Positions 27,760 through 56,482 of a DNA stretch of 64,000 bases are shown here, piece after piece. This DNA comes from Prorocentrum cordatum. Its lineage: Eukaryota > Sar > Dinophyceae > Prorocentrales > Prorocentraceae. The notes beneath the pieces were generated by a model. It was not told the origin of the DNA. It did not search any database and worked only from the letters and a program-made list of their open reading frames with translations. Positions within the stretch are counted from its first letter, which is position 1; every line of letters starts with the position of its first letter. The position numbers and the translations under genes were made by a program. The DNA lies in contig CAUYUJ010016065.1 in NCBI GenBank assembly GCA_963575745.1, positions 95,001 through 159,000 of the forward strand. Direction: 5' to 3'.

Positions 27760-29885
27760 CGGAGGTCCGATCTACAGGAATGGGAGGGCGTACCTGGCCT
27801 TCACCTGCGCTTCGATTTCCTGTCCGCGAATGGCGCGGACCCCGCCCTGCTGCATTCCTGGCGGCACGGGCACTCTCTCGGGGCGTCGCCTGTCGTGCCG
27901 AGGCAGGTGCGCAACCATCCTTCCGTCGCGTCCCAGCTCGCGTGGGCCGAACGCGAACGGGACCGCCTGGCTGAGTCGGGGAAAGTTTCCTTCTTCCCGG
28001 CTGATGCCCCTCCGCCCAAACACCTCAACGTCAACCCGCGCGGCTTAATCCTGAAGCCGCGCCCCGGGGCGGACGCCGAGGCCGACGAATCTGAGCGCTT
28101 CAAAGCGCGTTTAATCGTCGATTTGCGGCGGGGGGGCGTCAACGAGCGCATGCCAAACGCCGACGTCGCGTACGGCACGCTGGATCAGGCTGTGTCCCGC
28201 ATGTCCGCGGGTTCCTGGTTGTTCGTCCTCGACCTGCGCGATTGTTTTTTAATTGGCGTGTTTCCGACGCCGACTCGTGCGCCCTAGGCTTCCATTCCCC
28301 TGGCAGACGCCAGCTCGGGAAATACAATTATTTACCATTCGGCCTCAAGCCCGCGCCTGGCATCAACGACACCAATGTGAAGGAGATTTTAAGAATCCTC
28401 CGCTTACGTACCGAAGTTGACCATTTAGACTTCGTTGACGACTTGTTAGGCGCGGCGCCGGATGAACCCACGGCTTGGCAAAACCTGTGTCGAGCTGTCC
28501 GCTTCCTGTTGCGGCGCGGCATCCCAATCAGTGCCAAACCCAGCGGCATCCGAGCACCTGCACGCCGACAAACCTGGATCGGCTGGGTGTTCGATACCGT
28601 CGAATGCATTATCACCGTGCCGCCTGAGAAGACTGACCGCTGTCGCGAGTTGTGCGCTGCCGTTCTCGAGGCAGACCAACACCGCACGCTCCGCAGCAAA
28701 CATGTAGCATCGGCAGTAGGTTTGGCCTCGCACATCGCGGAGCTCCTTCCGCAGTTGCGGCGCCGGCTGCACCCTCTTTGGGCAGATTTTAATGCGTCGG
28801 GGGTGTATTCGGCGTGGCGTGCCATCCCCTTGGCCGACCCCCCGGTGACTCTCTCAGATCTCAGTCGCGCGGCCCTGGCGCACATCTGCTCGGCCTTATG
28901 TACGCCCCCGGTGCGTTCCTTGCACTGTGACGGCGGCCCTCTCAGCATGTGGGGCCACAAATCTCCCGAATTCGCTGATTGGGCGAACCTTGCCCGCAAA
29001 GGCGCAATCCGGGTCGTGGAGTGCGACGCCTCCAAAATGCACGGGTGGTCCTACCATCTGTGTTGGGGCAGCCGCGTTGTCGCCGATACGTGGCCTGACA
29101 ACTTCGAATCCCGGGAGGCGCAGCCCAATTCCTTGGAAATCAATTACAAGGAGTTGTGGGTTGCAGTCCAGTGCCTTCTCAGGGAGTCTTCTTGCTTAAA
29201 AGGTTGGCGAGTTTTTTTCAGGCTCGACAATTCCGCTGCCGTGCATTACGTTAATGTGCGCTACGGGCGGATACCTTCCCTCGAGTCTCTGGCGCATCGT
29301 TTTGAAAGCGCCGAGCGGGCAGCTCAATGTTGGGCTCTAGCCTTGCACACCCCTGGCAAGAGCAACGTCATTGCAGACGCGGGATCCCGGTCACTGGACT
29401 TCGCGCGTTCCTGGCGCGAGGATCAGCACAGGGACGCCGCACTTCGCAAGACCTTGTTTCAAGAGGTCGAATCCAGATGCGGCGTTCAGTTCACGCTGGA
29501 CTTGTTCGCAGATCGACTCGGCATGACGGCTCTCACCCACGAGTGGCGTTTTCCAGAACTTTCCGCTTTCGAGGCCGAACTGCGCGGCCACGCGGTGTGG
29601 GCACACCCACCGCGCGCGCTGCCCAAGGAGACTTTTCAATTTTTGAATGCCGCCATTGCTGTCAACGCAGACCTGCGCGTTGTCATCCTGTGCCCTGACG
29701 ACCCGGGAGCCCCGTGGTTCCGTCCGTCGTTGCTATCCAAGTGGCACAGAATCAGATCGTGGCCCGCCGGGTACGACCTTTTCCGATGGCCGTCCGATCG
29801 CGGCTTGTCGAAAGGCCCAGCGTCGGATCTTCCATACATCGTGCTTCAAAGCTGGCTTCCGAACCGCCGGAAGCGCAAGCGCTGA
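27760..29885 (+). pseudogene. Reverse transcriptase - RNase H - methyltransferase-like polyprotein of the YR element, one frameshift
   Basis: Frame 1 (27760-28250) holds the RT N-terminal motifs: NPRGLILKPR, FKARLIVDLR and WLFVLDLRDC with the first catalytic Asp. At the T6 run 28245-28250 the frame shifts by -1. The second frame (to 29885, 547 codons) gives YLPFGLKPAPG, the catalytic LDFVDDLLG (residues 62-70), then RNase H with Asp262 (ECDAS), Glu304 (NYKELW), Asp329 (RLDN) and Asp379 (VIADAGSR). The last 130 residues (LDLFADRLGM, WAHPPR, CPDDPGAPWFRP) match the DNA-methyltransferase-like domain that follows RNase H in DIRS-type elements. It would act on the element RNA during reverse transcription. 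No ATG was found at the 5' edge of the open frame, so the start is unknown. The frameshift is either an indel in the T run (damage or sequencing error) or recoding. Confidence 0.85.
28245..28251 (+). promoter_or_regulatory. Possible -1 frameshift site (T TTT TTA) in the RT gene
   Basis: In the incoming frame the codons are TTT TTA preceded by T, the canonical X XXY YYZ heptamer, and the downstream RT continues exactly in the -1 frame. A small stem GGCGT/ACGCC (28255-28271) follows 3 nt later. Position in the middle of the RT catalytic domain makes an indel at least as likely. Confidence 0.35.
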
Positions 29886-30190
29886 CAGAGCTACCTGTGC
29901 TCTTTCGCACCTACAAAAATACACATTGCATTGCACATGCTTCCCCAATCCCTCCACCCCCAATATGGCCCCCCGCCCCTGCCCGCTATTAGGGTGCATT
30001 GCTGGGATTTTATGACTGTCGACGGCCGGGACATCCCACATTTTCAATTTCTCGTTTCTTCACATGTCCCCTCCTTGCTCCCCAGACCGCCCATGCTTCG
30101 CGGATGCTCCGGGACGTTCTTATTTGCCGCATTTCGGTTCAGCTGGTCCATCAGCGGATCTGCCGATTGAACACCGCCACTGTCGCGGGG
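29886..30190 (+). other. Spacer between RT and gag-like genes
   Basis: 305 bp without a conserved ORF. Confidence 0.5.
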
Positions 30191-31251
30191 ATGGGGTCTC
30201 CAGTCAGCGAGGACCGCGTCAAGGCCCTCATTGACGAGGCGATTGCGGCAGCGTGCGCCCCGTCAGGTCCCATCCACGCAGCGGTGCTCGCCAGCATCAC
30301 CAAGGAGGTCGCCGCCGACGGAACCATCGGCGTCGCTGCGAGCAGCGCCGTCACGAGCAGCGAGCAGGCCTCTCGAGGGCAACCCGGATCCCGGAGTTCC
30401 AGGCCCAGGCAGACGCGGAGCTTCCGTTCGGTAAAGTGTTGCGCGACCGTGGCCCCGACCAGGTCAGGCGGGCGTGGTTTGCGATCATGGTGGACACCGA
30501 CCAGTTAGAGGAGTCTGTCACTGAGTCCCTCGCTGACCCGAAAGATCCCATGGCCACCATTTACGCTTTGCATGCCGCACACCCAGCTAATTCGGAGTTG
30601 TCCGCGCTGAAGAGCAGCGCAGCCCTGCGCCACGCGGCCCGGACCACTTGGAAGCAACTGCGCCTCCCCGAGCAGGGCGGGGGACCCGACCGGCTGCAAG
30701 TGCACTTGGGCGAGCGCGCAAAGAGTAGCGACCATGCCGTTCGCGCCTTGGCCCGGGCCATTTTGGCTCTCTACCATTTAATCGAGAAGCGCGCGACGGC
30801 CCTTGCAAGCAAGAAGAAGACGGCGCTGGCGAAACACGCTGCCCAGAAACTGGCCTTGATGCCGTGCGTATACGAATGCATCAAGAGTTTTAAGCGGCGA
30901 CGCATCAAGCCATCGGCCGCGGTAGCGCTGGACAGCGAGCTGTTGCTCCGTGACTTCGGACTCGATCTGATCCTGGGGCCCGTGGCCTTGGGGGCGAAAG
31001 CTGCGACCGGTCCCTCGGGCAGCGCCGGCGCCGGCGCCTCTGGGCAAGTGTCCGGGAGCTCACAGGCGCAGGCCCCGGAGCAGGGCAGGCCCAGCCGCGC
31101 TTCGGGTTTCGCCAAGCGGGAGAGGTCGCCGTCCCCAGCCGCAGTCGAGTCTTCCAAACGAACCGCCAAGAAGAAAGAAGCTGACGCTCTATTCTTCGAG
31201 CTGCACGTTTTTGCCATAAAGAACCCTGCTGGGAGCGTCACCGAGCTTACT
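30191..31251 (+). pseudogene. Gag-like protein, 5' part (interrupted by a DNA transposon)
   Basis: Starts MGSPVSEDRVKALIDEAI at 30191 in frame 2 and moves to frame 1 between about 30365 and 30395 (frameshift). It then runs open through a helical region (ALRHAARTTWKQLRL, CVYECIKSFKRRRIK) and a Ser/Gly/Lys-rich linker to codon ACT at 31249-31251, where the DNA transposon begins. The frame resumes at 42574 and ends in a Cys-rich tail. The combination of a charged helical body, basic linker and terminal zinc-binding tail suggests a nucleocapsid-type role, but I recognise no named capsid domain. It lies downstream of RT, not upstream as in most DIRS-like elements. Confidence 0.6.
31249..31251. repeat. 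3-bp target site duplication (ACT), left copy
   Basis: Partner at 42571-42573. ACT is a complete Thr codon of the gag-like frame on both sides. Confidence 0.8.
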
Positions 31252-31351
31252 AAGTACTTAGCTTAGTTCTACTGTGGTTAGTATCCACATACGCCAGTTA
31301 CGACATGAGGTTAGCGGCTGGAGGTTCTAAGGTGATTAAAATCACGATTGT

Positions 31352-31401
31352 AAGTAGGTTACGTAACTATGCTAAGCGGTTAGGTTGATTGTGCTAACTT
31401 G
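31352..31401 (+). repeat. Subterminal inverted motif, left
   Basis: AAGTAGGTTA..GCTAACTTG, inverted counterpart at 42299-42342; about 45-50 bp with only the ends matching. Confidence 0.45.
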
Positions 31402-31469
31402 TTTTTTTTTAAGTTAGCTGCCGCAGACTTTCAATATCGTCGTATCGTTTTTGTAGTCGCAGCCGCGGG

Positions 31470-31760
31470 GCGGCGGCGGGGGCGAAAGCCCTGCGAAGGT
31501 CCCGAAGGGCTCTCAGGAGGTCCCAAACTGAGCGGGTCTGCTGAGAGGCGCAGCCTCGACGATATGGGAAAAAGCAAGGCGGCGGGGGGGGCGAAAGCCC
31601 TACGAGGGTCCCGAGGAGCTCTCAGGAGGCCCCAAAGTGAGCGGGTCTGCGGGGAGGCGCAGCCTCGACGATATAGGAAAACGCAAAGCAACGGGGGGGG
31701 GCGGAAGCCCTACGTGGGTCCCAAAGGGCTCTCAGAAGGTCCCAGAGCGAGTCCAGGGCC
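31470..31760 (-). repeat. 110-bp tandem repeat in the transposon's subterminal region
   Basis: Three units with GG(C)GAAAGCCCTRCG at 31482, 31592 and 31702, each followed by GCTCTCAG(A/G)AGG; the first two also share GAGCGGGTCTGC and CAGCCTCGACGATAT. It lies 3' of the transposase gene. Subterminal repeats are typical transposase-binding regions in CACTA elements; here that is inference. Confidence 0.75.
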
Positions 31761-31885
31761 CCACATGGCTCCCATGGGCACCCCAGGAGGAGGAAGAGTC
31801 GGAGTAGGAAGGAGATGAGGAGAGATACAGAATGAGGAGCTCCCAAACACCCAATCGATTGTACATCAACTGGTCCCACATGCAA

Positions 31886-33925
31886 TCAGGTCCGAAGCCT
31901 CCCGCCTGCGTGCTTGAACTTCGGGGGCAGCAACACACGAGCCAGCTGCCCTACAGGGGCATCCTTATGCACGCACGGCTCCTGCAAACGAAACAGAGGC
32001 ACCAATGTGCCGTGACCCTGCACCTGGCACGTTGCAGATTCCCCACACGAACCCGCGAGTGGCCAGGGGGTCATGCAGCACCCCACCCACGCGTCGACTG
32101 TGCAGAAAAACTGTATTTTGCCAATCCACACGAGCCCGTCATCCCCAAGCACTGTGCAAACATCACCGTTCGAAACAACTCGGCCGCGTGCGTACGCCGA
32201 GGTCGCCATGAGAACGTTGTACCCCATGGCGAAAGGGAAAGCCTTCAAAAACGACGCCTTCGCATGGTTGCTTGGAGACTTTAAATTAATTAAATCGGGC
32301 TTGGCAAGATTGTGGCGACCTAGATCGTAGAGGTGCTGGACGGTAGCCTCTTCTAAAACAGAACGGTCGAAAGCCGTCAAACTGTGCCGTGGAGTCATCA
32401 CTCTCTTTAGCACGCGGTGCTTCCGCTCGTGCAGAAAAGTCGATATGATCATTCCGTGGAGCTGCAGCTGGCTCGGGATATGCAAATTGTAATGTTCTTT
32501 GGCCTTCCACAGCTTGAAACCGTAGGCTGCCTGGCGCAGCACAAGGTGCGCGTGGATTGCCCGCGCAAGCTCATCGGCCTGAACGTCGCCGCTGTTTGCC
32601 ATCTGCAGCAACTCCATCACGTGAGCAAGAGCAAGAAAGCTGGCCGACTCCTTGCCAAGGACCCCCTTCTTCATGACAACGCCGCGGACGTATTGGGCGA
32701 GCACTGGGCAGAGGGACAGATACTCAGACGCTGAGCCAGCGGGCGAGTGATCAGCGTGCTTGCGGAAAACTTGCCTGGCGTGAGCATATGCGTTTGGCCA
32801 GCGCCACAATTGCATGTACTGGTTGAGATACGCCCCCCCCAGCCCATGATCCGCGAGCCTTTCCTCAAACTCCGAAACCTCCTTGACTAGGGTGCCATCC
32901 ACGCAGTAGCAGTGCATCCAGTCGTAGCACCAGCAACTGGGGAGGTTGAAATCTACATCCTCGTCCTGGAGAAGCCCCGTCGGGATGTAGTTAAAGCCGA
33001 GCAGCGTTTCCATCTCCTGCACCTCAGCATTCGAGCCGTTGACCGACAACTCCCGCAATCTCCGCTGGATTGCCTTGACCCCTTCATCGGAGTGCAACTT
33101 GAAGGCTGCCACGTTGAGGCTCGTCGAGGGGATGAGAAAGCCAGTGGGGTCGGGCAGGTACGTGCTCTTGAACGCCGCAACGTTTTGGCACAACGCACAT
33201 ATCTTGAGCCCGCCCGACCCTTTGACGCCAGTCGAAAACTTATGGCCCCGCTCGTCTTGCACGAGCATGGCCATGCGCCCCGTCACGAGACGAGGGGCTG
33301 CCTCACCTGCGATCGACAAGGAGATGCCGTGTCGCAAATCGGGCCCAGTAGGCCCCCCGAAGAAGAACTTGACCGCGTACCGAAACAGCTCAGCCATTCC
33401 ACCAGGGAGCTCTGCGACGGTGTCTGACCTTGGCGCGCACACGGTATTCCACGCCAACTCGCAACTCAAGATCGGAAACCCGAACTCCTTCAAGGTCCAG
33501 TAGACGGCTTGGACCTTCCTGGTGTTGTGTGGCTGCAGCGCCTGTCTTGGTGTGATCTCGTCCGTGTATAACACGATGGAGACGTGGTTGTTAGACGTGT
33601 CCAGCACCCTCACCAATGCGGCGCGATACTCTTCGCTGGACTTGCACGCCGCCTCTAAGAACGCAAAGGGGTGCTGGAAGAACAGCTGGACAGGCGGGTC
33701 ACCGACCTTCTTGCTGGGAACACTCCGCCGTTGAACCAGCGATCCAAATGTCGTGCTCTGGAAAGCAATTGACTGCCTCGCCCGCCTCTGGCTGGAACTC
33801 GAAAACACAGTGGGGAGCATGCCGCCATCATCCCGAAGCTGCTTCAGAATGTGCTCTAACCCGCTGGCGCTCACGTGAGCGTCGCGGCCGAGGTGGGCAA
33901 GCTTAAGTTTCTTGGCCTCGGCCAT
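31886..33925 (-). CDS. Transposase-like protein (CACTA/Plavaka-type, 679 aa)
   Basis: Intact 680-codon frame. The frame is open 91 codons further upstream, but that part is GC-rich low-complexity, so I start at MAEAKKLKLAHLG (33925). Candidate DDE residues: Asp122 in VLYTDEITP, a CALC pair at 243-246 between the first two acidic positions, Asp335-x-x-His338 in CYDWMHCYCVDG, and Glu500 in FLHERKHRVLK. D, CxxC, DxxH and E in this order is the arrangement described for RNase H-fold transposases of the CACTA group. The region before Glu500 (WKAKEHYNLHIPSQLQLHG) resembles the KxH..H(I/L)P motif of Tnp2-like proteins. It would cut and join the element ends in the nucleus. The C-terminal about 120 residues are Cys-rich and unassigned. 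Family assignment is by motif pattern only. Confidence 0.65.
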   Translation of the reverse strand: MAEAKKLKLAHLGRDAHVSASGLEHILKQLRDDGGMLPTVFSSSSQRRARQSIAFQSTTFGSLVQRRSVPSKKVGDPPVQLFFQHPFAFLEAACKSSEEYRAALVRVLDTSNNHVSIVLYTDEITPRQALQPHNTRKVQAVYWTLKEFGFPILSCELAWNTVCAPRSDTVAELPGGMAELFRYAVKFFFGGPTGPDLRHGISLSIAGEAAPRLVTGRMAMLVQDERGHKFSTGVKGSGGLKICALCQNVAAFKSTYLPDPTGFLIPSTSLNVAAFKLHSDEGVKAIQRRLRELSVNGSNAEVQEMETLLGFNYIPTGLLQDEDVDFNLPSCWCYDWMHCYCVDGTLVKEVSEFEERLADHGLGGAYLNQYMQLWRWPNAYAHARQVFRKHADHSPAGSASEYLSLCPVLAQYVRGVVMKKGVLGKESASFLALAHVMELLQMANSGDVQADELARAIHAHLVLRQAAYGFKLWKAKEHYNLHIPSQLQLHGMIISTFLHERKHRVLKRVMTPRHSLTAFDRSVLEEATVQHLYDLGRHNLAKPDLINLKSPSNHAKASFLKAFPFAMGYNVLMATSAYARGRVVSNGDVCTVLGDDGLVWIGKIQFFCTVDAWVGCCMTPWPLAGSCGESATCQVQGHGTLVPLFRLQEPCVHKDAPVGQLARVLLPPKFKHAGGRLRT

Positions 33926-34198
33926 GCTGCTTGAGCCTGAACGGCGAACACGGGCAGGACGACCCATGCCACCCCGTCGGCTACACGCGGCCCCATCGGG
34001 CCTTGCAGCACGGCACCGCGCGACACATGTCTTCGTAACGGGCGCGACGCGCGCGCAACACGGCACCACGCAGCACCAGCCTTGCAGCACGGCACCGTGC
34101 GACACTTGTATTCGTGACGAGCGCGAAAAGCGCGCAACACGGCACCACACATCACCATTGCTTGATAATAGTAACAGGAGGTGTCGCAGAAAACTCAT

Positions 34199-34686
34199 AG
34201 GTTTAGCGAATGTTTCGCCGCATGTTTCGTTTGTGGTTCGTCTGCGTTTTTTGTTGTTTTTTACGTGCCTTCGCTGTTTGTTTGTGGGTGGTTATGTTGT
34301 GGCGTGCGTCGTTTAAGTTGGCGGCCTTTACATCGCGGGGGATATGATACATAGGCGGGGAGCCCGTACGATGATGAGGGGGAGGCTGGCGATGATGAGG
34401 GAGATATGCTAGGATGACGATGGTCGAGGTGTTGATGCTGACGGTGTCTTGCTATTCGCACTTGTGCAGGCTGGCGGTACATGAGCCAGCTGCGAGTTCT
34501 GTCTGTGCGCGCGTGCTACCACATGCTCGCGGGGGTGAGCCTCGTACCCTATGCACACCAAGCCCCGATGTGTGGCAGAGGAGGCTGCGACGTCGGCAGT
34601 GGCTATAGCCCACTGTCGGTCTGAGCAGAGGAAGCGGCAACGCAACGCCTTGCTTAAAGCGAGGCCAAGATAGCGAACTGTACATC
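34199..34686. other. Spacer between transposase and small ORF
   Basis: No conserved ORF; unique sequence. Confidence 0.5.
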
Positions 34687-35010
34687 CTACTTGGAGCCCG
34701 CATTGTTAACCTTTATCCACACCGCAGTCGCTGCCGCGAAAGCCTCGCGGGCGACGAGAACAGCATCGTGATCGGAGAGGCCCGCCCTGATGGCGTTCCT
34801 CTTGGCTGCGTCGTATGCCTTGCTGGTGTAGGCCCCACGAGTTTTACCCACGGCGTCCTTGGGCCTCAGGTAGTCGGAGTAGCTAACCGTGCGCTTCCCC
34901 TTCTTGGAGCCGCCTCGCATCGGGCGCGAGGAGGGCGAGGAGGCAGAGGGGGAGTGGGCGGGGCGAGGACGAGGAGGGGAGCCCCCCGTCCGGTCCACCT
35001 CCCCCTTCAT
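34687..35010 (-). CDS. Small basic protein of the nested transposon (107 aa)
   Basis: Begins MKGEVDRTGG, then a Pro/Ser-rich and Lys/Arg-rich segment (MRGGSKKGKRTVSYSDYLR), then a helical Ala-rich part (AYDAAKRNAIRAG, DAVLVAREAFAAATAVW). It is 27 bp downstream of the stop of the 457-residue ORF on the same strand, as in a compact gene set. No domain recognised. The conserved-looking helical half suggests a small DNA- or protein-binding accessory factor, but this is only inference from composition. Confidence 0.6.
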   Translation of the reverse strand: MKGEVDRTGGSPPRPRPAHSPSASSPSSRPMRGGSKKGKRTVSYSDYLRPKDAVGKTRGAYTSKAYDAAKRNAIRAGLSDHDAVLVAREAFAAATAVWIKVNNAGSK

Positions 35011-35037
35011 CGCCCCTCAGCCCTCCTCCTCACTACC

Positions 35038-36411
35038 TTAATCCTCATCCTCCTCCCCCTCCTCGTCGCAGCCGCCTGCAGGGGAAGCGGCTGCTGGCTT
35101 GCGGAGCGTGGCGGCCTTGGCAGGGGAAGCGGCTGCTGGCTTGCGGAGCGGGGAGGCCTTGGCCTTCGCCTTCTTGGCCTTCCCCTTGTCCCCCTTGGCC
35201 TTGGCCGCATTGGTCGCCGCCGCGGCGTCCTTGTCCCTGCCCCTCTTGGCCTTCGCGGCCGCCCTCATGTTCTGCTCCAACTGCTCGAGCTCGTCCTCGG
35301 CATCCATCTGATCGTCGCCGTCGAGCAGGTCGGCGCAACCGACCGCCGCGCCGTCCACCACAGTAGCTGGCGGTGCCACCTGGCTAGCCAAGCGCTGGCC
35401 GCCTGGCTGGGCGTAGGGCGCGGCCGCGCCGTGCTGGTTGGAGAAGAGGTTGGGCGAAAGCTGAATGCCGAACTGCTGGGCGAACGGCTGCATCGCTGCG
35501 AACGCGTTGCTGCCGAGCGCCTGGCTGGCCAGTCCCGCCAAGAGCTGCAGGGGGCAGTGCTGCGCCTGCTGCTGCCGCTGCTGCTGCTGCTGCGGAGGCG
35601 GCGGGAGGGCCAGCTGCATGGCTGGCGGCTGGTCAGCCGAACTAGCTGCCGCCGCTCTCCTATCCTTGAGAGGCGCCCCTGTGATCTGGCTGGACGTCTT
35701 CCTGCGGCACATCTTGACACCACTCATGTCGACGTCTGCTGGCACGACAACTGGCGGATCAGCGGCGTCGGGGTACGCGAACCTGTACTTGGCAGGGGTG
35801 AGGTCCGACGGCATCATGAAGTCCTTCTGGTGGCCATGAGGGTACGTCTTGCTCTTGTCGATGCTCTTGACGGCATCCTGCACCATGTCGCAGAGGGCAG
35901 CCTTCTTGGACCCAGGCACCTGACTCAAGTCCGAATAGGCGCAGGCGACGATGATGGCCGCAGCTGCCTTCAGGGTGCGCTCAGCAGGGCACGTGATGCC
36001 CATGCGCCACATGCGTGCGCCCAAGGTCTGGGCTTTCGCTCCCTCCGACATCATAGCGTTCTTCATCACGCTCCAGTCGGACGCCGTGAGGAAGTGGGAG
36101 AGGTCGGAGCAGTACTGCTGGCAGCGAGTGTGGCCAACCCTCTTGGCCAGCTCCTGGGCGGCGGCGGCGTCGTCGAGGGCCGTCGCCAGCATGAGCTTCT
36201 GGTCGGCCGACCACGGCCCACGGTTGATGTGCTCCGTCACTTGGGTGGCCACCGAAAGCGTAATCCCCGTGGACGAGCTGAAAGTCGCCAAAAGCGAGTT
36301 CGCTTGGGCCTGAAGCAAGACGGCCTCGGGCATGCCCGCTCCGACCTGGGTGTTTACGAAAGCCAGGCGCTGGGAGATGACCGAGCAGAGGCGCTCAGCC
36401 TCGAAGTCCAT
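35038..36411 (-). CDS. Accessory protein of the nested transposon (457 aa), NLS-like tail
   Basis: Intact frame starting MDFEAERLCSVISQRLAF. Residues 1-200 are a helical, Ala-rich globular part (RGPWSADQKLMLATALDD; FLTASDWSVMKNAMM). Then come a Pro/Gln-rich linker with Q5RQ3 near 280, an acidic stretch (DLLDGDDQMDAEDELEQLEQ), and a Lys/Ala/Pro-rich C-terminus with two copies of LRKPAAASP and a final acidic tail. The basic region looks like a nuclear-localisation or DNA-binding tail of histone-H1-like composition. Position between the small basic ORF and the 232-residue ORF, same strand, suggests shared expression. No named domain recognised. Confidence 0.65.
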   Translation of the reverse strand: MDFEAERLCSVISQRLAFVNTQVGAGMPEAVLLQAQANSLLATFSSSTGITLSVATQVTEHINRGPWSADQKLMLATALDDAAAAQELAKRVGHTRCQQYCSDLSHFLTASDWSVMKNAMMSEGAKAQTLGARMWRMGITCPAERTLKAAAAIIVACAYSDLSQVPGSKKAALCDMVQDAVKSIDKSKTYPHGHQKDFMMPSDLTPAKYRFAYPDAADPPVVVPADVDMSGVKMCRRKTSSQITGAPLKDRRAAAASSADQPPAMQLALPPPPQQQQQRQQQAQHCPLQLLAGLASQALGSNAFAAMQPFAQQFGIQLSPNLFSNQHGAAAPYAQPGGQRLASQVAPPATVVDGAAVGCADLLDGDDQMDAEDELEQLEQNMRAAAKAKRGRDKDAAAATNAAKAKGDKGKAKKAKAKASPLRKPAAASPAKAATLRKPAAASPAGGCDEEGEEDED

Positions 36412-36785
36412 ACTGCAGAGTGCGGTCGGGTCAACGGTCAGTCAGTGGGGAAGCCAAAACAACTTCTCTAAAACTGCTGCGGAGGTGAGCGGAGGCGAGT
36501 CGAGGTGAATGGACGGGGCGCGTGCGACCCGAAACCTACCAAAATATCCGGCCTGGGAGGCGGCCTGAGGGGCCCATCGGGCCCTTCCCCCGCCGTCCAC
36601 GGGCCACCAGTGCCTGTGTCACCCATGCGAAACGCAGTCGAAACAAACGCATCCGCAGCAGTGCGCACAGTCTGATGCCTCCCCCGAGCTCTCGCGCGAC
36701 CATCGCACGAGGCGATCTTTGATGGCCCCGAATGCGAGATCGGCCCCAAAATCGGAGTCTCATGGGCGCCCCCCCCCCCAGAAGC

Positions 36786-36945
36786 CTCATATGCACCAAC
36801 GCAGCTGGCTGCACTGGTGCATATGCACCAACGCGGCTGGCTGCACTGGTGCATCCCCTGGGGGGGTCTGCACATGCACCAACGCAGCTGGCTGCGCTGG
36901 TGCATATGCACCAATGCAGCCAGCTGCGTTGGTGCATATGGGGCT
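36786..36945. repeat. Palindromic repeats, unit ATGCACCAACGCAGCTGGC
   Basis: Four related units: three direct (near 36790, 36821, 36874) and one inverted (36905-36936, GCAGCCAGCTGCGTTGGTGCAT). Each unit starts TGCACCA and ends TGGTGCA, so it is itself a foldback. A G9/C10-type homopolymer sits at the left border. Confidence 0.8.
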
Positions 36946-37195
36946 TCGTCGCAGTCTACCTGAGATGTCTGGTGATATGCAGCGTGCTGACCTCCTCCCC
37001 TTCCTCCTGCCACCCCACCCCTGACGACTCGCACAGGCTCGTTTGGCGTGAATTCCCTCGTCAGCTGTCCGAGCCGCGTCCCCGTCGCAGGCACGAGCGA
37101 GCGGCTTACCCCGAGCCGTTCAAGACAGCACACGCGACTTGGGCAACGCATGCCGCCGAGGATGGCGCAGCGCTGCCTCTGCACGGGGCCCAGAC

Positions 37196-37894
37196 TCAGG
37201 CGCCGCCGACGGCCGCTGCCTCGAACTGCCCGCCGTGGTGCTGCTCGTAGAAGGCCTCCAGCTCCCTCGTGATGCGGTCCACGTGCTCCTGCGCGTTCCC
37301 ATCGGTTGGCACGTGGATGGACTTCTGCTTGTACTTCTTCGCCTTGGCATCGTAGTACTTCACCCTCAGCGCGTGCCTGCACGGAAGCCACTGCACGTGC
37401 TCGGACGAAAGGGCTGGCCTCACCTCGCCGACTTCGGTCACGGCTGGCTCCTTCGCAAGAAGTTCGAGCACGCTGCACGACAGCTCGACAGCCAGCTTGT
37501 CCCGATGGTGAGCGGTCGTGAGCACGTTGATCGTCACTGTAGTGCCGTCGGCCATGGGCGTCGTCACCTCCACGATCGGCGCGACGTCGTCGATCAACTC
37601 CTTGCGGGCTCGCTTAGGCGCGGGCTCCTCCCCCTCAGCGTCGCCAAGAGGATCGTTCCCACGGCCGACCTGGGTCATCAAGGAGTCGACCTTGTCGTTC
37701 CGAGCCTTCACGATCGCATCGACCATCCTGAACGAGCGGCCACACAGCTTGTGAAACTTGCTGTCCCTCTTGTCGCAGAAGGCGAATGTCGTGTTCTCCA
37801 CCGATATCGTCTTCGCGACCCAGCTGTTGTGCGGCGTTGGCGGGCTACCGTCAGACGACACGCACACGTAGCCAGCCTGGATGGACACTGGCAT
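37196..37894 (-). CDS. Hypothetical protein of the nested transposon (232 aa)
   Basis: Intact frame starting MPVSIQAGYVCVSSDG. The N-terminal half has TTFAFCDKRDSKFHKLCGRSF with two Cys and a His (possible metal site) and a helix FRMVDAIVKARNDKVDSL. The middle is acidic followed by KRARKE (possible nuclear signal), and the C-terminal half is strand-rich (VEVTTPMADGTTVTINVLT, ALRVKYYDAKAKKYKQKS). It is followed by the 457-residue ORF after a 780-bp gap containing the palindromic repeats. No family recognised; function unknown. Confidence 0.55.
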   Translation of the reverse strand: MPVSIQAGYVCVSSDGSPPTPHNSWVAKTISVENTTFAFCDKRDSKFHKLCGRSFRMVDAIVKARNDKVDSLMTQVGRGNDPLGDAEGEEPAPKRARKELIDDVAPIVEVTTPMADGTTVTINVLTTAHHRDKLAVELSCSVLELLAKEPAVTEVGEVRPALSSEHVQWLPCRHALRVKYYDAKAKKYKQKSIHVPTDGNAQEHVDRITRELEAFYEQHHGGQFEAAAVGGA

Positions 37895-38103
37895 CGGCGG
37901 CCTGCGTCAGTGCGTGGAGGCGTTCGCCTCGGGAGAAGAGGTGGAGCTGGCGCTTGAGCCCAAATTGGCTACGGGATGGATGGATGGATGGATGGAAAGG
38001 CCCGTAGGGGAGTGCACAGCACTAAATAATTAAGCAAAGCTTGAAATCACAAAACTTCATTCTAAGACAACCTCCGACGATGGCTTTTACGGCCAAATAC
38101 ACA

Positions 38104-38131
38104 GCGTCAATATGTTTAAACATATTGACGC
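38104..38131. repeat. 28-bp perfect palindrome
   Basis: GCGTCAATATGTTT followed by its exact reverse complement with no loop; ACACA/CTGTGT outside extends the symmetry imperfectly. Could bind a dimeric protein or form a cruciform. Confidence 0.85.
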
Positions 38132-38275
38132 TCTGTGTCTGGAACTTTAGCTGCTCAAGCGGCCCTACATCTCGAGCTCCCAAAGAAAGCCCGTTAGCAA
38201 ACATGTAGGACTCACTGGAGGGAACTAACAGACTTGGCCTGCTCCTAAAGTTGCTCTTCCGTGCTCGGTCGTCGT

Positions 38276-38305
<30 letters not shown>
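38276..38305. repeat. (GTC)n microsatellite
   Basis: About 10 GTC/CGT units within the transposon. Confidence 0.8.
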
Positions 38306-38308
<3 letters not shown>

Positions 38309-38404
38309 TCCGTCGCGATTTAGTTTTTTACTTAGCAGGTTCCCGTCGTAACAGGGGGGCAAAAGTGCTATGCTCGCATGCTACCCCAGCCGTTGTCGTC
38401 ATGT

Positions 38405-39117
38405 TCCTTCTCCTCCTCCTCCTCCTCCTCCTCCTCCTCCTCCTCCCCCTCCTTCTCCTCCTTCCTCCTCATCCTCCTCACCCTCCTTCTCCTCCTTCCT
38501 CCTCCTCCTCCTCCCCACTCCTCCACTGTGCTCGTCTCACCCCCAGCCAAGCGCCGAGCGAGCACCCCGCCCCAATGCGTGCCTTACCTTACCGTACCTC
38601 CTCCTCCTCCTCCTCCTCCTCCTCTCCCTCATCCTCCTCCTGCGGGGGCACGGCGCTGGGCGGTCCTGCGGCATCGCCTCGCTCTCGTCGAGACGGCGGG
38701 GGCCGCGGCCGCGGGGCGCTCCCCCCACCCCTCCTCCTCCTCCTCCTCATCCTCCTCCTCCTCCTCCTCCTCCGCCTCCTACTCCTCCCTTCCCCTCCTC
38801 CTCCTCCTCCTCCTCCTCCTCCTCCTCCTCCTTCTCCTCCCCCCTCCTCCTCCTCATCATCCTCATCATCATCGTCCTCCTCCTCTTTCCCCCTCCCCCT
38901 CGTCCTCCGCCTCCTCCACCCTCCCCCCCATCCTCCTCCCCCCATCCTCCTCCTCCCCCTCATCCTCCTCGTCATCCTCCGCCTCCTCCGCCCCCTCCCC
39001 CCTCCTCCTCCTCCTCCTCATCATCATCATCATCATCATCCTCTTCCTCCTCCTCCTCATCCTCCTCCTCCTCCCCCTCCTCCTTCTCCTCCTGCTCCTC
39101 CTCCTCCCCCGCCTTCC
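38405..39117. repeat. Long (TCC)n microsatellite inside the nested transposon
   Basis: Over 700 bp of TCC with a GC-rich break at 38518-38600 and 38640-38727, and CAT-rich stretches near 38850 and 39020. All long ORFs over it are artefacts. It inflates the element by about 0.7 kb. Confidence 0.95.
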
Positions 39118-39520
39118 CCTCGTGTGTTTGTTTTTTTTTCGGGCCTGGCATTTGTTTGACATTCTGTGTTTGCGGGTGTGTCTCTGTTGTGATTGTTGCG
39201 TGCTTGCGCGTGTGTTTTGTTTGTGTTTCGCTTTCCAGTTTAGCAAGTATGGCGATTTGCGCTTCTTGTCTTTCTTGGTGCTCGTGTCTCTTTGTGTGTG
39301 CGTGTGCGTGTGCGTGGCTGCGATCTGCGAAACTGTCGCCACTTTCGAGGGGTGCTGGTCCAACATAGAGGCTACACCTCGCCATCGCTGGGGGGCTGCG
39401 ACGCTTGTTTCACGCTGTCCTCGAAGCTGGTGCAGTCAGAGCACCAGCGATCACGAACCTGGTCACTTATGACTGGCACACCATGGCAGCAAACTCAAAC
39501 GTCCACTTGCCAACATGCAA

Positions 39521-40270
39521 TCAGCGCTTCGGCGCAGCACCCGCGTCGGGCCCCTTCTGGAAGAGCTCGCTGCCTTTCTCGATGGCCCTCGTGTTGGTCA
39601 TGGCAGGCAGCACGCACACGACATCGTCCTGGCGCTTGGACTCGGACTCGGCGCTCCACGTGCTCACCATCACCCTCACCGTGGACCACGCCACGTTCAC
39701 CTTCGCGGTGTCAGGGGTCGAGGGGATGCACCAGCAAGGCACGATGAACTGCGCCGTCTTCTCACCAGGCAGGGTCGTCTTCGGGAGCAGCCACATCTCG
39801 TGCTTGGCCTCTGGCATCTTGATGTTCACGGCAATCCCGTTCTGCGGCATCTTGGCGCCGTACCCGATGTTCGGGGTCAGCGGAATCAGTTCGAGTTGGC
39901 CCTTCGCATACCGCTTGTCGGCCACGACCTTCTTGCCAGACTTCGCGAACGTGATGGTCAGCTCAACCGTGGGGGCGTACTCCTTGTATGCGGAGTCGAG
40001 GGCCGCCCTGACGAAGGCCCGCTTGAGCTCGCTCATCACCTCCTTATTCAACAGCCCGATGGCCGCGCCACCCGTCACCTGCACGACAGTAGACTCTTCC
40101 TCGGAGATCACTTCGAAGTCGTCGACGAGCTTGCTGGCGGAAACCTGGAGCTCGTGTTCTGCCTTGCGCTTCTTGGCGACAGGGGTGCCGTCCTCCTTGA
40201 ACAGCCTTGTCAGCGGGGTGCCGTCGTCCAGCACCAGCTTGACCTCGCGAGGAGAGAGGCGCAAGAGGAA
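39521..40270 (-). CDS. Hypothetical protein of the nested transposon (about 250 aa)
   Basis: The frame extends to 40420, but its first about 50 codons run through a GGA/TCC repeat (40270-40335) and lack an ATG; the protein-like part begins near FLLRLSPREVKLVLDDG. Candidate ATGs at 40358 and 40347 lie in other frames, so the TCC repeat may have expanded and shifted the start. The body has KEDGTPVAKKRKAEHE (basic), EVISEEESTVVQVTGG, KEVMSELKRAFVRAAL and a strand-rich C-terminal half ending GPDAGAAPKR. The gene nearly abuts the stop of the 544-residue ORF. No domain recognised. Confidence 0.55.
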   Translation of the reverse strand, partial: FLLRLSPREVKLVLDDGTPLTRLFKEDGTPVAKKRKAEHELQVSASKLVDDFEVISEEESTVVQVTGGAAIGLLNKEVMSELKRAFVRAALDSAYKEYAPTVELTITFAKSGKKVVADKRYAKGQLELIPLTPNIGYGAKMPQNGIAVNIKMPEAKHEMWLLPKTTLPGEKTAQFIVPCWCIPSTPDTAKVNVAWSTVRVMVSTWSAESESKRQDDVVCVLPAMTNTRAIEKGSELFQKGPDAGAAPKR

Positions 40271-40361
40271 AGCAGAGGAGGAGTATGAGGAGGAGGAGGG
40301 GGAGGAGGGGGGTGAGGAGGAGGAGGAGTTAAGATGACAAGGGGCATAGCAGCAGCATCGG

Positions 40362-41996
40362 TCAAACCTTGTCCTCGCCGAGTTCCAAGATGACCCATGT
40401 GCCCTCCACGTTCGCGCCACTCCTGCCCTTGACCTTCGCCTTGAGCTCGAAGCCCTTGCTCTCCAGGATGTCGGTCTTCACGACGTGGCCAGACGAGCCC
40501 GAGCTCGAATCGTACTGCACCATGGCGGCCACGGCAATCTTTGGCTCGTCGGACACTGTCACTTGCCACGGGGGCTCCACGTGCGCCGCGGCGGGCCAGA
40601 CCTTGCGCACGTCATGGACGAACTGCTGCACCACGGAGTCTAAGTCGTCGAACTGCTTGCGTCCACGAGCTTTCTTGCCGTACGTCGCCATGACCATCCG
40701 CACGTCGAGCTCGCCAATCAGCCTGGCGAGCAGGTGGGCGTCCGTAACCTTGCAGCCCTCCTTCAGGTAGTGCACGGCCGAGCGATGCTTGGCCACGGCG
40801 TCGAAAGCCATGCTGCGAAGCTTCCCAGACTCCACGGCCTGAACGTCAGAGCTCGTGATGAGCCGAACGCCGCCGTCCCTCATGTACTGCTCTGGCGCAC
40901 CCAGGGACGCCTTCATGCACGCAGTGACCCACTCGGGGACCTGCGATAGCCGAGCCTTCCCCAATATACTGAAAGTGACCGAGCCCACGTCGCGAGTGTT
41001 GTCCCCCAAAGTTTTGGCGAACGCCTTCAGCTCTTGCAGGAACACTGGCGGGTTGCCTCCGCCGAAGTTCTGCACGCACGTGGCCATGGCATCGACCTGC
41101 CCCTTGAGGTACGGGCGCGTGCGCTCGATGTCCCGCACCACTGACGGCATCGTCGCATTGCCAAAGTGCGCGACCCTGATCATCTTTGCGTGAATCTGCA
41201 TCAGGGTCTGAACCTTGCTCTGCAAGCGATGCGATCCGTGCCCAATGTTGTGTGACTCGGACAGGAACGCTGCAAGGTCTGGCACCTCAGCGACAACTTC
41301 GGCTCGAATGACAATCCACGTGAGACCAGTCTCCATGGCCTCCTTGATGCTAGTGCACGCCCTGAACACCGCGTCCTGGCTAATGTACCCGTCCTCGTTA
41401 ACGAACTCCGTCTCGTAGCTCTTCGTGCAGTGCAAGATGCAGCGAAGGACCTGGTTGGTGTGGCTGCATGCGATGCTCAACATCTTCATAGTGTTCGAGA
41501 CCCTCGCCAAATAGCCCTCGCTCGATGCGACGAGCTCCTCGTTGAAGCGCACCTGCTTTGAGCCCTCGTCCCCGTTGCCAACCTCGATGGCCACTGGGTC
41601 CTTCACTTCGGACCAGCTCCAGCCAGACCGAATGATGATGCCTGCCAAGATGTGCACCTCGTGCCACTCCACTCCAATCCCGAATCGGTTGTCGGGGTGG
41701 ACCCCGACGTCGTCGGGTACAGCCGTCGCGCGGTAAGCCAGCCCTTTCTCCAGCAGCAGCTGCACCAACTTATCAGCTGCTGCTTTCTGCTGCTTGGCGC
41801 CCTGCTCATCAGCGTTCTGGCACTGGGCGATCACGGCCCTCAAGCCCTCCGCCAAGTCCGTGAGGACGGCCTGCAAACTCTGATGCATCGGCATTGAGCG
41901 CCGCAGAAGCCTTCCGAAGGCGAAAGCACTAGCTCGGCCCCGAACGGGGCGGCAGGGAGGGCCCGAAACGGCTTGAGCCAGTGCGGCTATGCTCAT
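40362..41996 (-). CDS. Large accessory protein of the nested transposon (544 aa)
   Basis: Intact frame. MSIAALAQAV at 41996 is the first start; MPMHQSLQAVLTDLAEGL (codon 35, 41894) is a plausible alternative because composition becomes protein-like there. Features: a helical N-terminus, a VGVHPDNRFGIGVEWHEVHIL segment, IACSHTNQVLRC, two further helical blocks around GHGSHRLQSKVQTLM and LKEGCKVTDAHLLARLIGEL, and a strand-rich C-terminal 100 residues. It is the first gene inside the right TIR, about 560 bp from the end. It has normal codon texture and no stops over 1.6 kb, so it was recently under selection. I recognise no named domain; a structural or DNA-binding role in transposition is a guess. 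Confidence 0.65.
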   Translation of the reverse strand: MSIAALAQAVSGPPCRPVRGRASAFAFGRLLRRSMPMHQSLQAVLTDLAEGLRAVIAQCQNADEQGAKQQKAAADKLVQLLLEKGLAYRATAVPDDVGVHPDNRFGIGVEWHEVHILAGIIIRSGWSWSEVKDPVAIEVGNGDEGSKQVRFNEELVASSEGYLARVSNTMKMLSIACSHTNQVLRCILHCTKSYETEFVNEDGYISQDAVFRACTSIKEAMETGLTWIVIRAEVVAEVPDLAAFLSESHNIGHGSHRLQSKVQTLMQIHAKMIRVAHFGNATMPSVVRDIERTRPYLKGQVDAMATCVQNFGGGNPPVFLQELKAFAKTLGDNTRDVGSVTFSILGKARLSQVPEWVTACMKASLGAPEQYMRDGGVRLITSSDVQAVESGKLRSMAFDAVAKHRSAVHYLKEGCKVTDAHLLARLIGELDVRMVMATYGKKARGRKQFDDLDSVVQQFVHDVRKVWPAAAHVEPPWQVTVSDEPKIAVAAMVQYDSSSGSSGHVVKTDILESKGFELKAKVKGRSGANVEGTWVILELGEDKV

Positions 41997-42298
41997 GGCT
42001 TTGTTTGCTTCTGCGCGTGATCAGTTGTGTATGTGTGTTGATGGTGCGTCCTGCTTTGCTTGGAGGTTTTGCCGCGTTTGCCGCATGCTCGTTTCTGCTG
42101 ACGCCGTTGCTCATGCGTTTGCTCATTGTTTGGTCATTGCTTATTTCTTGATGCGCGTGACTGAATATGTTGATGCATCTGCTTGTCTTTTTTTGTGTTC
42201 TGGGTGGGGGTGGGGGGGGGGCGTTGTTTCGGGAAGCCGAGCTGTATGCTCGAGATCGGGCTGGCGCGGGCGGGGAGCGCGTCCCCAACTTCGGTAAT

Positions 42299-42342
42299 CA
42301 AGTTAGCTAACCAACTTAAAACCGACATACCTAACCTACTTG
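42299..42342 (-). repeat. Subterminal inverted motif, right
   Basis: Inverse of 31352-31401; followed to 42570 by an AT-rich terminal zone with GGTTAG/CTAACC words. Confidence 0.45.
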
Positions 42343-42570
42343 TAACCATCATAGTAACTACATATAACTATCATACGATCCCAATTTGAAATCCACATGG
42401 GGTTAGGCTAACTAGGTTAGTAAAGCCCCGAACCGCCGAAGATGGATAGCCTCAGCGGCCTAAGTAGACGGGGCGCTTCATAATCACTTAGGTTGGATGT
42501 ATCCTGGGTAGGAAGGTTATAAGTACGTTATACCCACCTTATACCAAACATATAACAGGGCTATCTACTT

Positions 42571-42573
42571 ACT
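42571..42573. repeat. 3-bp target site duplication (ACT), right copy
   Basis: Partner of 31249-31251. Confidence 0.8.
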
Positions 42574-42837
42574 ATCCGCCATGACCCTCCCAGTGAAGCC
42601 CCTAAACACGAAGGCTGGCTTTCGGAAAAGTCCAAAACCAACCCGGCAGCAGTCAAGGCACTCATGTCCGAGGTGTGCCGCAATTGCTTGTACTCGAACC
42701 ATGGAGCGGTGAAGCATAATTTCACGACGTGCAAGTCCCTCGGCAACCGCTGCGCGCTCACTTGCCCAAAGCGCAAGGGGGCAGGCAGGGCCCAGGACGT
42801 CAAGCACTGGGCGGCGGACTGCCCCTACAGCCGCTGA
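42574..42837 (+). pseudogene. Gag-like protein, 3' part with Cys-rich tail
   Basis: Directly after the ACT duplication the frame of the upstream gag-like part resumes (phase preserved) for 87 codons to TGA 42835-42837. It starts IRHDPPSEAPKHEGWLSEKS and ends with CRNC, a middle group of three Cys (TTCKSLGNRCALTC) and a terminal HWAADCPYSR. The final H-x4-C resembles the second half of a retroviral-type zinc knuckle, supporting a nucleic-acid-binding tail. It is separated from the first part by the 11.3-kb transposon. Confidence 0.7.
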
Positions 42838-43660
42838 CGCACACGAGTCGGCGCCAGCCCCCGGTCAATGGACGCTCCGCTGGGTACATGCATGGTTCTG
42901 CACACGCGTTTCTTTTCTTCAGCGCCATTGTCCCGGGCGAGAGTTTTAATTGCGCCTGCCGGCAGAGCCCCTGCCAGGCCGTCCACGGCGCATGTCCTTT
43001 CTTTTCTTCCGCCGCGCGCCTGCGTCTCAAGCAGGCGCGCGCCCCGGGCCAGCCCCCGCGACCCAGTCCGAGGCCGCGCCCGGCGCCCTTGAAAAAAAAG
43101 AGCGCCAGTCGTCGCATCGCCGTCTGCTCCCCCCCTCACCCTGCTTTCTCTGCCCCTCGCCTGCCCCTCGCTTTCGCCCCTCCCGCTCCGCCCCCCCCCT
43201 TTCCTACGCAATCCCGCCCAGGGATCGTCGGCGGGCGCGGGTCGGCGGCCGCCGGGCACACGCGCCATGCGCATTAGTTACTGTTGGGGGGCAGAGAAAT
43301 CACCAGGGACCGGGGCCGCGGCCCTGGCGGCCTCATTCAACACAGTTGTGTAAAAAACCTACGATTGCTTCACTTTTCTGCCGCTCTGGCAGGGGAGAAA
43401 AACACTTTCTCGTCGCGCGTGGTTTACGGGATCCGCGCACCGTTGCCCATGAGCATTGCCGCGGCCACAATATCCCCGGGGGCCGCGCACGGCAGGGCCC
43501 AGGCGGCCCCCGACCGCCAAGAAAACGTGCCAAAAAAACGCACGATTGGCGCACTTGTTGCCCCCTGGCGGGGGGTAGAACACACCTTCGTCAACGCCCC
43601 CCCCCAGCCTGTTGGTCGACAGGGAATGGCCGCCGCGACCCAAAGCCTTCGGGGCTCGAG
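42838..43660 (+). other. Spacer between gag-like and recombinase genes
   Basis: GC-rich, no conserved protein. Two similar about 100-bp blocks (43321-43417 and 43497-43600) share GGC..CCTGGCGG/CCAGGCGG, AAAAAACC/AAAAAACG and ACGATTG(C/G) words: a decayed direct duplication, possibly promoter-related. Confidence 0.45.
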
Positions 43661-45044
43661 ATGAAGCGCGGCCCCGGACCGCCAGAGCCCGCGCGCCGCC
43701 AGCGCCTCGGCCCCGCCCGTTTGCACCGCGACGATTTCGATCGCCCCAGGCCGGCGGCCGACAGAGCGTCTTCCGACGGGCCTCGCGCTGCACCTTCGCA
43801 AGTATCCGCGGCGCCCCCGGGGGAGACCCGCCCCGGCGACGCGCGCTGGCGCCCTAGCACGTCAAACGGGGCTGTTGGGGCCCCCGCGCTGCAACACGAA
43901 CCACTTCGAGCCCCGCCGATGGACGCGCCAGGCGCGCGCCAGCTTCTGAGTGGGGGCCCCGACCTCTTGTCTTTAATTCGCGAGAGCACCTCTGTGGAAC
44001 AGGAGGCACATCGCAGCAGGGCCATATCAGCAATTGCCTCCAAGCACCCCTGGAGGAGAGCACAAAGAAGCGGTATTGCAGCTCCCTGCGTACTGCCGTA
44101 GATTCTTGCGAGAATTCCTCAGGGCTGCAACTTTTGCCGTGCGAATCCGACGTGAAATTCATGCTGCTGTTTGCCCAGATGGACGGCCGGTCGTGGTCAT
44201 CCGTTACGAATCCGCGCGCTGCAGTGCGGCGTTGGCACCAGCAGCGCAACTTGACATCGCAATTTGACAATGCATGGTCGGACCGGTCGGCCCAATTTCT
44301 GGAGAGGTCTGAAGAAGCGGGTCGACCATTCACGGTCACACGCAAAACGCCCCGTATCTCTCGAAGAATTGCGGTGTTACCAGAACGCACGCCTCAAAGC
44401 AGGCAGCCTGGCCGCTGTCCGGGACGTCGCTATAGCAGCCGTGTCTTTCTTCGGCGTCCGGAGGTGTTCCGAGACTCTCGCGCTCCGGCGTCGAGACATA
44501 TCTTTGCACGACAATTTCGTGTTTATTTCTGTCGCCCGGCAAAAGAACGACCCTTTCGGACATGGCATGGGGTGCCACATCCCAAAGATGGTCGACACCC
44601 CCAGCTTTTGCCCATGCCGCGTCCTGCGGGAATGGCTGGTGCAGCGGGACTCACGCTGGGTGGGGTTCCGACCCGGATGCGCCCGTGTTTTGCGCGACTC
44701 ATTTGGCGGAGCCCCGCCCCATGAATTGCGACTCCTTCCGCCGAAATCTTTCGCAGTTCTTTCAGACCGCCGCAGTGGGGACACACTCACTGCGAAAAGG
44801 CGGTGCTCACTGGTACAAGACAGTGTGCTGCTTGCCGGAAGAGTTGGTGCAGGCTCAGGGCGGCTGGTCGGCCCCTGAAACCATGCGAGCATTTTACGCT
44901 TGTTTCTCAGATTCAGAGAGGTGCGATCAGCTGTTACGCGCCGTGTCTACAGTTTCGAGTGGCGTGGCGGTCCCAGCCACCACTCATCATCATACGCGTG
45001 TTTCACCTATGCCTCTGTGGAGGCGCCTCACTGGGAGCTTGTGA
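43661..45044 (+). pseudogene. Tyrosine recombinase of the YR retrotransposon, three frameshifts
   Basis: Likely starts MKRGPGPPEP (43661), with a Pro/Arg-rich N-terminal extension. After a shift near 44050 the core-binding domain reads STKKRYCSSLR..FMLLFAQMDGRSW..AAVRRWHQQRN. After a second shift (44265-44300) comes FWRGLKKR..RPVSLEELRCYQ..VRDVAIAAVSFFGVRRCSE with the first catalytic Arg (about 44459). After a third (about 44690-44720) THSLRKGGAHWY supplies His/Arg (44784-44795), QGGWSAPETM the second His/Trp position, and RAFYACF the Tyr nucleophile (44895). All catalytic residues are present, in three frames. It would recombine the circular cDNA into the genome. Its stop lies 15 bp before B1. 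Confidence 0.85.
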
Positions 45045-53218: not shown

Positions 53219-53771
53219 GGCGGGGCCGACGCCGTCGTCGTCGTCGTCGACGCTGTCGTCGTCGACGACGGCGTCGTCGTCCTCGTCCTGGCCTTCGGCC
53301 TCGTCCTTGACATCGTCCTTGATCCCGTCGCAGCCCCATCCGAGCCAGGGCGGGGCCGACGCCGTCGCAGTCGCTGTCGCCGTCGTCGTCGTGCTCGTCC
53401 TTGTCCTCGTCCTCGTCGCCATGACGTCCGAGCGACGGCGAGGTCGTCGTCGTCATCGTCGTCGTCGTCGTTGTCGTCGTCGTCGCCGTCGGCGTCGTCG
53501 TCGTCGTCACCGTCCTTCTCCTGCTCATCCTCGTCGTCGTCCTGTTCGCCGCCGCGTCCGAGCGACGGCGAGGATCCACGCCGTCGCTGTCGTCGTCGAC
53601 GTCGTCGTCGTCTCCTTCCTGCTCGTCCTCATCCTCGTCCTCGTCGCCGCCGCGTCCGAACAACGGCGGGGCCGACTCCGTCAACGTCGTCGTCATCGTC
53701 GTTACCGTCCTCGTCCTCGTCCTCATCCTCATAGCCGCCGCGTCCACGAGACGGCAGGGCCGACGCCGTCG

Positions 53772-53812
<41 letters not shown>

Positions 53813-54870
53813 CTTGTCCTCTTCCTTGCCCTTCTCGTCCTTCTCCTCATCCTCGTCGCCGTCCGCGTCCTTGTCCTCGGTCGCAATCGCCGTCGCAGAC
53901 GACATCGCCATCGCCGTCGTCGTCGCCGTCGTCCTCGTCGTCGTCGACGCCGCGTCCGACCGACGGCGGGGCCGACGCAGTTGACGTCTTCGTCCTTGTC
54001 ATCGTCGTGCACAGCCTCGTCGCCATCCTCGTCCTCGTCCTCGTCCTCGTAGCCGCCGCGTCCGAACGACTGTGGGTCTGATGCCGTCAGCGTCGTCATC
54101 GTCTTCACCGTCGTCGTCCTCGTCCTGGTCGTCCTTGTCGTCGTCGTCGTCGTCGTCGTCGTCGACGCCATTCGTCGTCGTCGCCGTCCTCGTCCTCGCC
54201 CTCGTCCTCGTCGCTGGCGCGTCCAAGCGACGTCGTCGTCGTCGTCGTTGCCGTCCTCGTCCTCGTCGTCGTCTTCATGCTCGTAATTAGCCGCCGCGTC
54301 CGAGCAACGGCAGGGCAGACGCCCTCGTCGTCGTCATCGTCGTCGTCGTCCTTGTCCTCGTCCTTGCCCTTCTCGTCGAGGTCCTCATCCTCGTCACCGT
54401 CCGCGCTCTTGATCCTTGTAGCCGTCGTCTTGTCGTCGCAGTCGCCGTCACAGTCGCCGTCCTCGTCATCGCTCCCGTCCTCGTACTCGTCCTCGTCGTC
54501 GTCGCCGCCGCGTCCGAGCAACGGCGGGGCCGACGCAGTTGTCGTTTTCGTCCTCGTCGTCGCCGTCCTCGACCTTGTCGCCGTCCTCGTCCTCGTCCTC
54601 GTCCTCGTCGGCGTCCTCATGCTCGTCGTCGGTGACGTCGCTGGTGCCGACGCCATCGCAGCCGCTGTCGCAGTCGCCGTCGCCGTCGTCGGCGTCCTCG
54701 GTCTCGTCCTCGTCCTCGTCGTCGTCGCCGCCGCGTCCGGACGACAGCGTGGCCGACGCGGTCGTCGCCTTCGTCCTCGTCGTCGGCGTCCTCAACTTCG
54801 TCGCCGTCCTGATCCTCGTCCTCGTCCTCGTCTCCGTAGCCGCCGCGTCCGACCGACGGCGGGGCCGACG

Positions 54871-54919
<49 letters not shown>

Positions 54920-55234: not shown

Positions 55235-55274
<40 letters not shown>

Positions 55275-56164: not shown

Positions 56165-56199
<35 letters not shown>

Positions 56200-56450: not shown

Positions 56451-56482
<32 letters not shown>

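Follow-up and report, generated by a model that had tools for sequence, protein, structure and literature searches.

We analysed a 64,000-nucleotide stretch of the dinoflagellate Prorocentrum cordatum (GenBank assembly GCA_963575745.1, contig CAUYUJ010016065.1, positions 95,001 to 159,000 of the forward strand; hereafter the window, in which all positions are counted), and report here on a transposon that occupies positions 31252–42570 (11,319 bp) and is bounded by ACT on both sides. An earlier reading made from the letters and their open reading frames (ORFs), here termed the sequence-only reading, had described a CACTA/Plavaka-like element with six co-oriented ORFs, comprising a transposase-like gene and five conserved accessory genes. 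All the named ORFs do lie on the minus strand, but as modelled from sequence the six ORFs reduce to four genes (D, C, B and T in transcription order), because the 544- and ~250-residue ORFs form the exon pair of D and the 457- and 107-residue ORFs that of B, which leaves three accessory genes (B, C and D) instead of five.

The exon pairs rest on homology to two gene models (P0010 and P0018). Gene D (39521–41894, minus strand, 749 aa) comprises exon 1 at 41894–40368, a GT-AG intron at 40367–40244 and exon 2 at 40243–39521; P0010, also of 749 aa, covers both exons (41894–40365 at 98% and 40267–39524 at 96%), and excising the intron, which was the best among the splice pairs tried, gives the 749-aa protein. 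The ~250-residue ORF is listed as 299 aa when begun at an upstream GTG. The intron (40244–40367) has a CTC-rich tract ahead of its AG, and a long CCT array (38730–39107) lies between D and C. Gene C (37196–37894, minus strand) is a 232-aa ORF with a G+C content at third codon positions of 0.85, similar to that of B (0.84) and of D exon 1 (0.82). In gene B (34687–36411, minus strand), exon 1 runs from 36411 to ~35200 (the 457-residue ORF) and exon 2 from ~34902 to 34687 (the 107-residue ORF), and the two are joined because P0018 aligns across both (36411–35233 at 50% and 34908–34690 at 55%). The best-scoring junctions for B use a GC donor, with the exact junction approximate; such donors are permitted in dinoflagellates (PMC11453091, PMC10666404; this and every other source given by PMC number is cited from excerpts). 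In the predicted B protein the N-terminal region is conserved, the linker is rich in Q, P and K, and the C-terminal segment is separate. Gene T (31886–33925, minus strand), the transposase, has nine relatives and encodes ~679 aa. The mechanical ORF of 770 aa runs to 34198, whereas the start is most likely the Met at 33925, since the relatives of T begin there. A 79-bp tandem duplication (34000–34157) sits just 5' of this likely start, in the ORF extension that is absent from the relatives.

Borders and insertion site

The two ACT copies lie at 31249–31251 and 42571–42573, and directly inside them are the terminal inverted repeats (TIRs), AAGTACTTAGC on the left (31252–31262, plus strand) and, read on the minus strand, AAGTAGATAGC on the right (42560–42570), so that the element termini read AAGTA..TACTT. 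The 11-bp TIR that had been claimed is thus present but imperfect, with 9 of 11 positions identical. By themselves, a TIR and a 3-bp duplication are insufficient to fix the borders: in a 700 × 650 grid round the ends, 128 pairs have a TIR of at least 9/11 and four of these (this element's pair counted) also have a 3-bp duplication, while of 200,000 pairs drawn at random from the window, 177 have a TIR of 9/11 or better, two of them with the duplication as well.

The element is real, and we accept its borders because two further, independent lines of evidence go beyond the TIR and the duplication. The first is the bracketing by the host frame, which together with ACT stood as originally proposed. 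The host ORF begins at 30253; on the left its frame crosses the border by 12 bp and then stops (31264), and the right host frame meets a stop at 42553–42555, 15 bp inside the right border; when the flanks are joined over a single ACT, the frame stays open up to a stop at 42835 and encodes a Cys/His-rich tail. The second is a set of repeats specific to the ends. A left subterminal block (31252–31421; 61% A+T) holds five GTTAG/CTAAC motifs and a right block (42291–42570; 58% A+T) holds six, compared with 39% A+T in the element interior. Both ends together (450 bp) thus hold GTTAG 11 times, counted on either strand, against five times in the 10.1-kb interior, and none of 5000 first-order shuffles of the ends reached 11. 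These observations also bear on whether the interval could comprise more than one element or be an artefact of chimeric assembly, with T and the left part belonging to one mobile element and D, C and B to another. Although the long CCT array (38730–39107) and other tandem repeats could join unrelated pieces, the matching GTTAG-rich, AT-rich blocks are found at both ends only, there is one duplication and one frame is restored, and we regard a composite origin as very improbable.

The insertion target looks like a retroelement-like locus, possibly of DIRS type, since the target region (27895–31251 plus 42574–45044) holds a reverse transcriptase ORF (RVT_1, E 2.5e-4), the ORF with the Cys/His-rich tail, which the transposon interrupts, and a further ORF whose tyrosine-recombinase match stays below threshold (XerC, E 0.087).

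The transposase and its classification

We aligned T with its nine relatives (10 members) and found that the part of T with the predicted RAG1/Transib fold (ORF residues 110–630; 32309–33871, minus strand) carries D213, D315, C334-x2-C337, D426-x2-H429, H569-x3-H573 and E591. D213 and D315 are shared by all nine members that have a letter there, E591 by nine of ten (the exception, P0009, ends there), and C334, C337, H569 and H573 by all ten, which places C(2)C and H(3)H between the second D and the E. This is the order D, D, C(2)C, H(3-4)H, E that is the transposase signature of the CMCT clade (PMC12730594), under which we group CACTA/EnSpm, Mirage, Chapaev, Transib and RAG1, and for which that source lists EnSpm/CACTA, Mirage, Chapaev, Transib, Plavaka, ESTA and Lanisha. 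The predicted structure of T (mean pLDDT, the predicted local distance difference test score, 69.9) matches the fold of RAG1, BbRAGL and Transib. The predicted core is common to RAG1, the RAG-like transposons (TransibSU, BbRAGL) and HzTransib over ~400–465 residues, at an identity of 11–12% to the RAG1 rows and 8% to BbRAGL and HzTransib. The motif pattern and the predicted fold together support T being a CMCT-clade DDE transposase of RAG1 fold, and the transposase-like gene of the sequence-only reading is borne out by both.

Searches by sequence returned little. At E ≤ 10, the only Pfam matches among the 10 family members were five chance-level hits, within the reach that the HMMER filters allow; among solved structures the T sequence had no relative, and its profile met only ribosomal L43 zinc ribbons (E 0.65–1.1). 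One relative, P0004 (40% identity), belongs to a data set that bears the label Pyramimonas.

C-terminal to the core, residues 632–752 (31943–32305, minus strand) adopt a BAH fold in the predicted model, resembling the BAH domains of ZMET2, BAHCC1, DNMT1 and ORC1 at 6–14% identity. D679, C708 and W712 are identical in all seven sequences (of the 10) that reach this region, and W712 is a candidate cage residue only. In the BAH proteins compared, the domain is not part of a transposase, unlike in T, where a RAG1-fold transposase is apparently fused to a chromatin-reading (BAH-like) domain. Neither the element nor a BAH transposase is described in the titles and abstract openings of the literature searched, a scope that leaves aside preprints and most subscription journals.

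The termini were compared with those of the known groups. The 3-bp ACT duplication, seen in one copy, falls within the 2–5 bp range of the CMCT clade (PMC12730594). The ends, AAG..CTT, differ from the clade's CA..TG, which is not a defining feature because the source speaks of 'most cases' (PMC12730594). They are likewise neither CACTA nor CAC..GTG as in CACTA/EnSpm, nor TGT..ACA or CATCA..TGATG as in Plavaka (PMC12730594), and the duplication is not the 5-bp one typical of Transibs (PMC4411706), nor are the ends like the recombination signal sequences of Transib/RAG-like elements. Since the termini fail all three comparisons, we file the element under none of CACTA/EnSpm, Plavaka and Transib. 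Membership of CACTA or Plavaka in particular is not shown. A classical CACTA/EnSpm or Plavaka element of ordinary divergence, with TnpA-like accessory genes, would account for the 3-bp duplication, the CMCT motif pattern and the subterminal repeats, which are of CACTA/EnSpm type (11 GTTAG in 450 bp). However, its termini should be CACTA, CATCA or TGT, and at E ≤ 10 none of the 10 members gave a Pfam hit to Transposase_21, DUF4218 or Plavaka (again as far as the HMMER filters reach), so that we think this rather unlikely; of the original CACTA/Plavaka-like label, the CMCT-type transposase is retained on motifs and fold, while the Plavaka part finds support in neither the Pfam searches nor the termini.

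From the CMCT clade as a whole, the element differs by its AAGTA..TACTT termini, the lack of a Pfam match, the BAH-like C-terminus and accessory genes of unassigned families. It is nevertheless not a new kind of element, because extra conserved genes are already known in the clade: fungal EnSpm and Plavaka carry a TET/JBP gene (PMC12730594), and TransibSU carries a RAG2-like gene (PMC4411706). No RAG2-like gene was identified here.

Relatives and linkage of the accessory genes

Seven proteins matched D, five from P. cordatum and two from other sources. The P. cordatum relatives lie on contigs of 453,558, 693,484, 958,297, 325,655 and 280,603 bp; the best are at 98% and 94% identity and older copies at 44–53%. 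Four proteins matched B, two of them from P. cordatum on contigs of 325,655 and 280,603 bp, both of which equal D contigs in size to the base pair. Identities on these two contigs are congruent (D 50% and 44%, B 51% and 50%). Together, the five D contigs amount to 2.71 Mb of the 4150-Mb assembly (PMC10666404); by our own arithmetic, the chance that two random B matches would both fall on them is about 4 in ten million, if equal size means the same contig. Taking it so, B and D look co-inherited. The other three of the five D contigs have no B among the matches listed, which says little because low-complexity words crowded the search with B, in which at most 8000 candidates were considered. A further match to B, P0020 (22% in the alignment), is on a 207,011-bp contig, while P0017 (256 aa, 98%) also has the Pyramimonas label, which would be most simply explained by cross-contamination with Prorocentrum.

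Of the follow-up that had been suggested, profile searches of Pfam and NCBIfam gave nothing above chance level for T, B, C and D, by which we set aside the accessory genes as host enzymes; structure prediction gave a RAG1-like model for T, and the predicted model of D (pLDDT 46.6) was too poor for a fold search. Against solved structures, the D profile and ORF C gave only hits at E 0.38–1.4. No relative of gene C was found in the viral-contig scan, the dedicated protein searches having covered T, D and B only. In IMG/VR, no relative was confirmed with the T and D profiles, ORF C, P0005 or P0009, nor was one confirmed among prokaryote genome contigs for T or D, and a fold search of BFVD gave nothing at E ≤ 0.001. 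A viral origin by way of B was also rejected, as the single IMG/VR locus matched has ORFs that we read as those of a tailed phage, and we take the match to be spurious.

We consider it likely that the whole is an autonomous cut-and-paste CMCT-clade DNA transposon inserted in an ORF of a retroelement-like P. cordatum locus, with four co-oriented genes, T (RAG1 fold plus BAH-like domain), B, C and D. What weighs against this is that the linkage of B and D to T is seen in this copy only, and their sharing of contigs elsewhere does not place T beside them. The same fact would fit a simpler CMCT transposon with T only that once captured a neighbouring host gene pair or trio, B, C and D being passengers and B–D elsewhere a host locus, as would the absence of any transposon name in the annotation of all seven D and all four B matches. 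Nor is a co-oriented B–D pair odd by itself, because P. cordatum genes are mostly unidirectional and 64.8% are dispersed duplicates (PMC10666404). On the other side, D occurs in near-identical (98%, 94%) and old (44–53%) copies on five P. cordatum contigs, B and D are still together at ~50% divergence, and all four genes are co-oriented between the termini. A single capture of B and D, which the sequence-only reading had named as its own refutation, is disfavoured because diverged homologues share contigs, as judged by size, with congruent identities, and we find such a capture unlikely.

Proposed mechanism and further features of the window

In plant En/Spm, which encodes TnpA and TnpD, TnpA binds the subterminal repeats. 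Those repeats resemble the ones described here, although CACTA ends are absent from our element, and by this analogy B may bind the GTTAG repeats. For the four-gene transposon we envisage that T, either by itself or helped by B acting as a TnpA-like DNA-binding protein, would recognise the TIRs and the GTTAG repeats, cut both ends by DDE chemistry of RAG1/Transib type, and join them to the target at a 3-bp stagger, from which the ACT duplication would arise. Docking of the BAH domain on a chromatin protein might bias target choice or relieve silencing, and D could serve the element, possibly by regulating transposition or silencing. Trans-splicing is usual in dinoflagellates, and the genes may be transcribed as one precursor that is then trimmed in this way.

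The enzyme by which antibody genes are cut, RAG1, has its origin in a DNA transposon, and to our knowledge the wider RAG1-related clade is poorly sampled in protists. The bulk DNA of dinoflagellates is not packed by nucleosomes. More tentatively, and with less than even confidence, we suggest that dinoflagellates have their own lineage of RAG1-fold transposons, whose BAH-bearing transposase and two or three dedicated, co-inherited partners form a multi-subunit transpososome adapted to dinoflagellate chromatin. This 11.3-kb element of a red-tide alga has three partner genes, two of which (B and D) appear from sequence comparison to stay together in distant copies. If the reading holds, a RAG1-fold transposase with a chromatin reader and long-linked partners would be a test case for helper recruitment and target choice, set in a nucleus with very few nucleosomes, and would give a name to the P. 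cordatum 'unnamed protein product' families B and D (seven annotated proteins on five contigs, told apart by size in base pairs).

Several repeats lie within the element. A tandem-repeat scan found a 109-bp unit in 2.6 copies near the left end (31469–31751), a short CACCAACGCAGCTGGCTG-type unit recurs, head-to-tail as well as inverted, in the interval between B and C (36781–36947), and between C and D there is a 50-bp imperfect palindrome (38093–38142) with a 13-bp perfect stem core (−27.5 kcal/mol as RNA). The G+C content of the window, ~0.6, agrees with the 59.7% given for the P. cordatum genome (PMC10666404). Beyond the element, a trinucleotide array of GTC type with strong base skew takes up 4.6 kb (53376–57967), and many further CCT/GGA arrays occur in the window.
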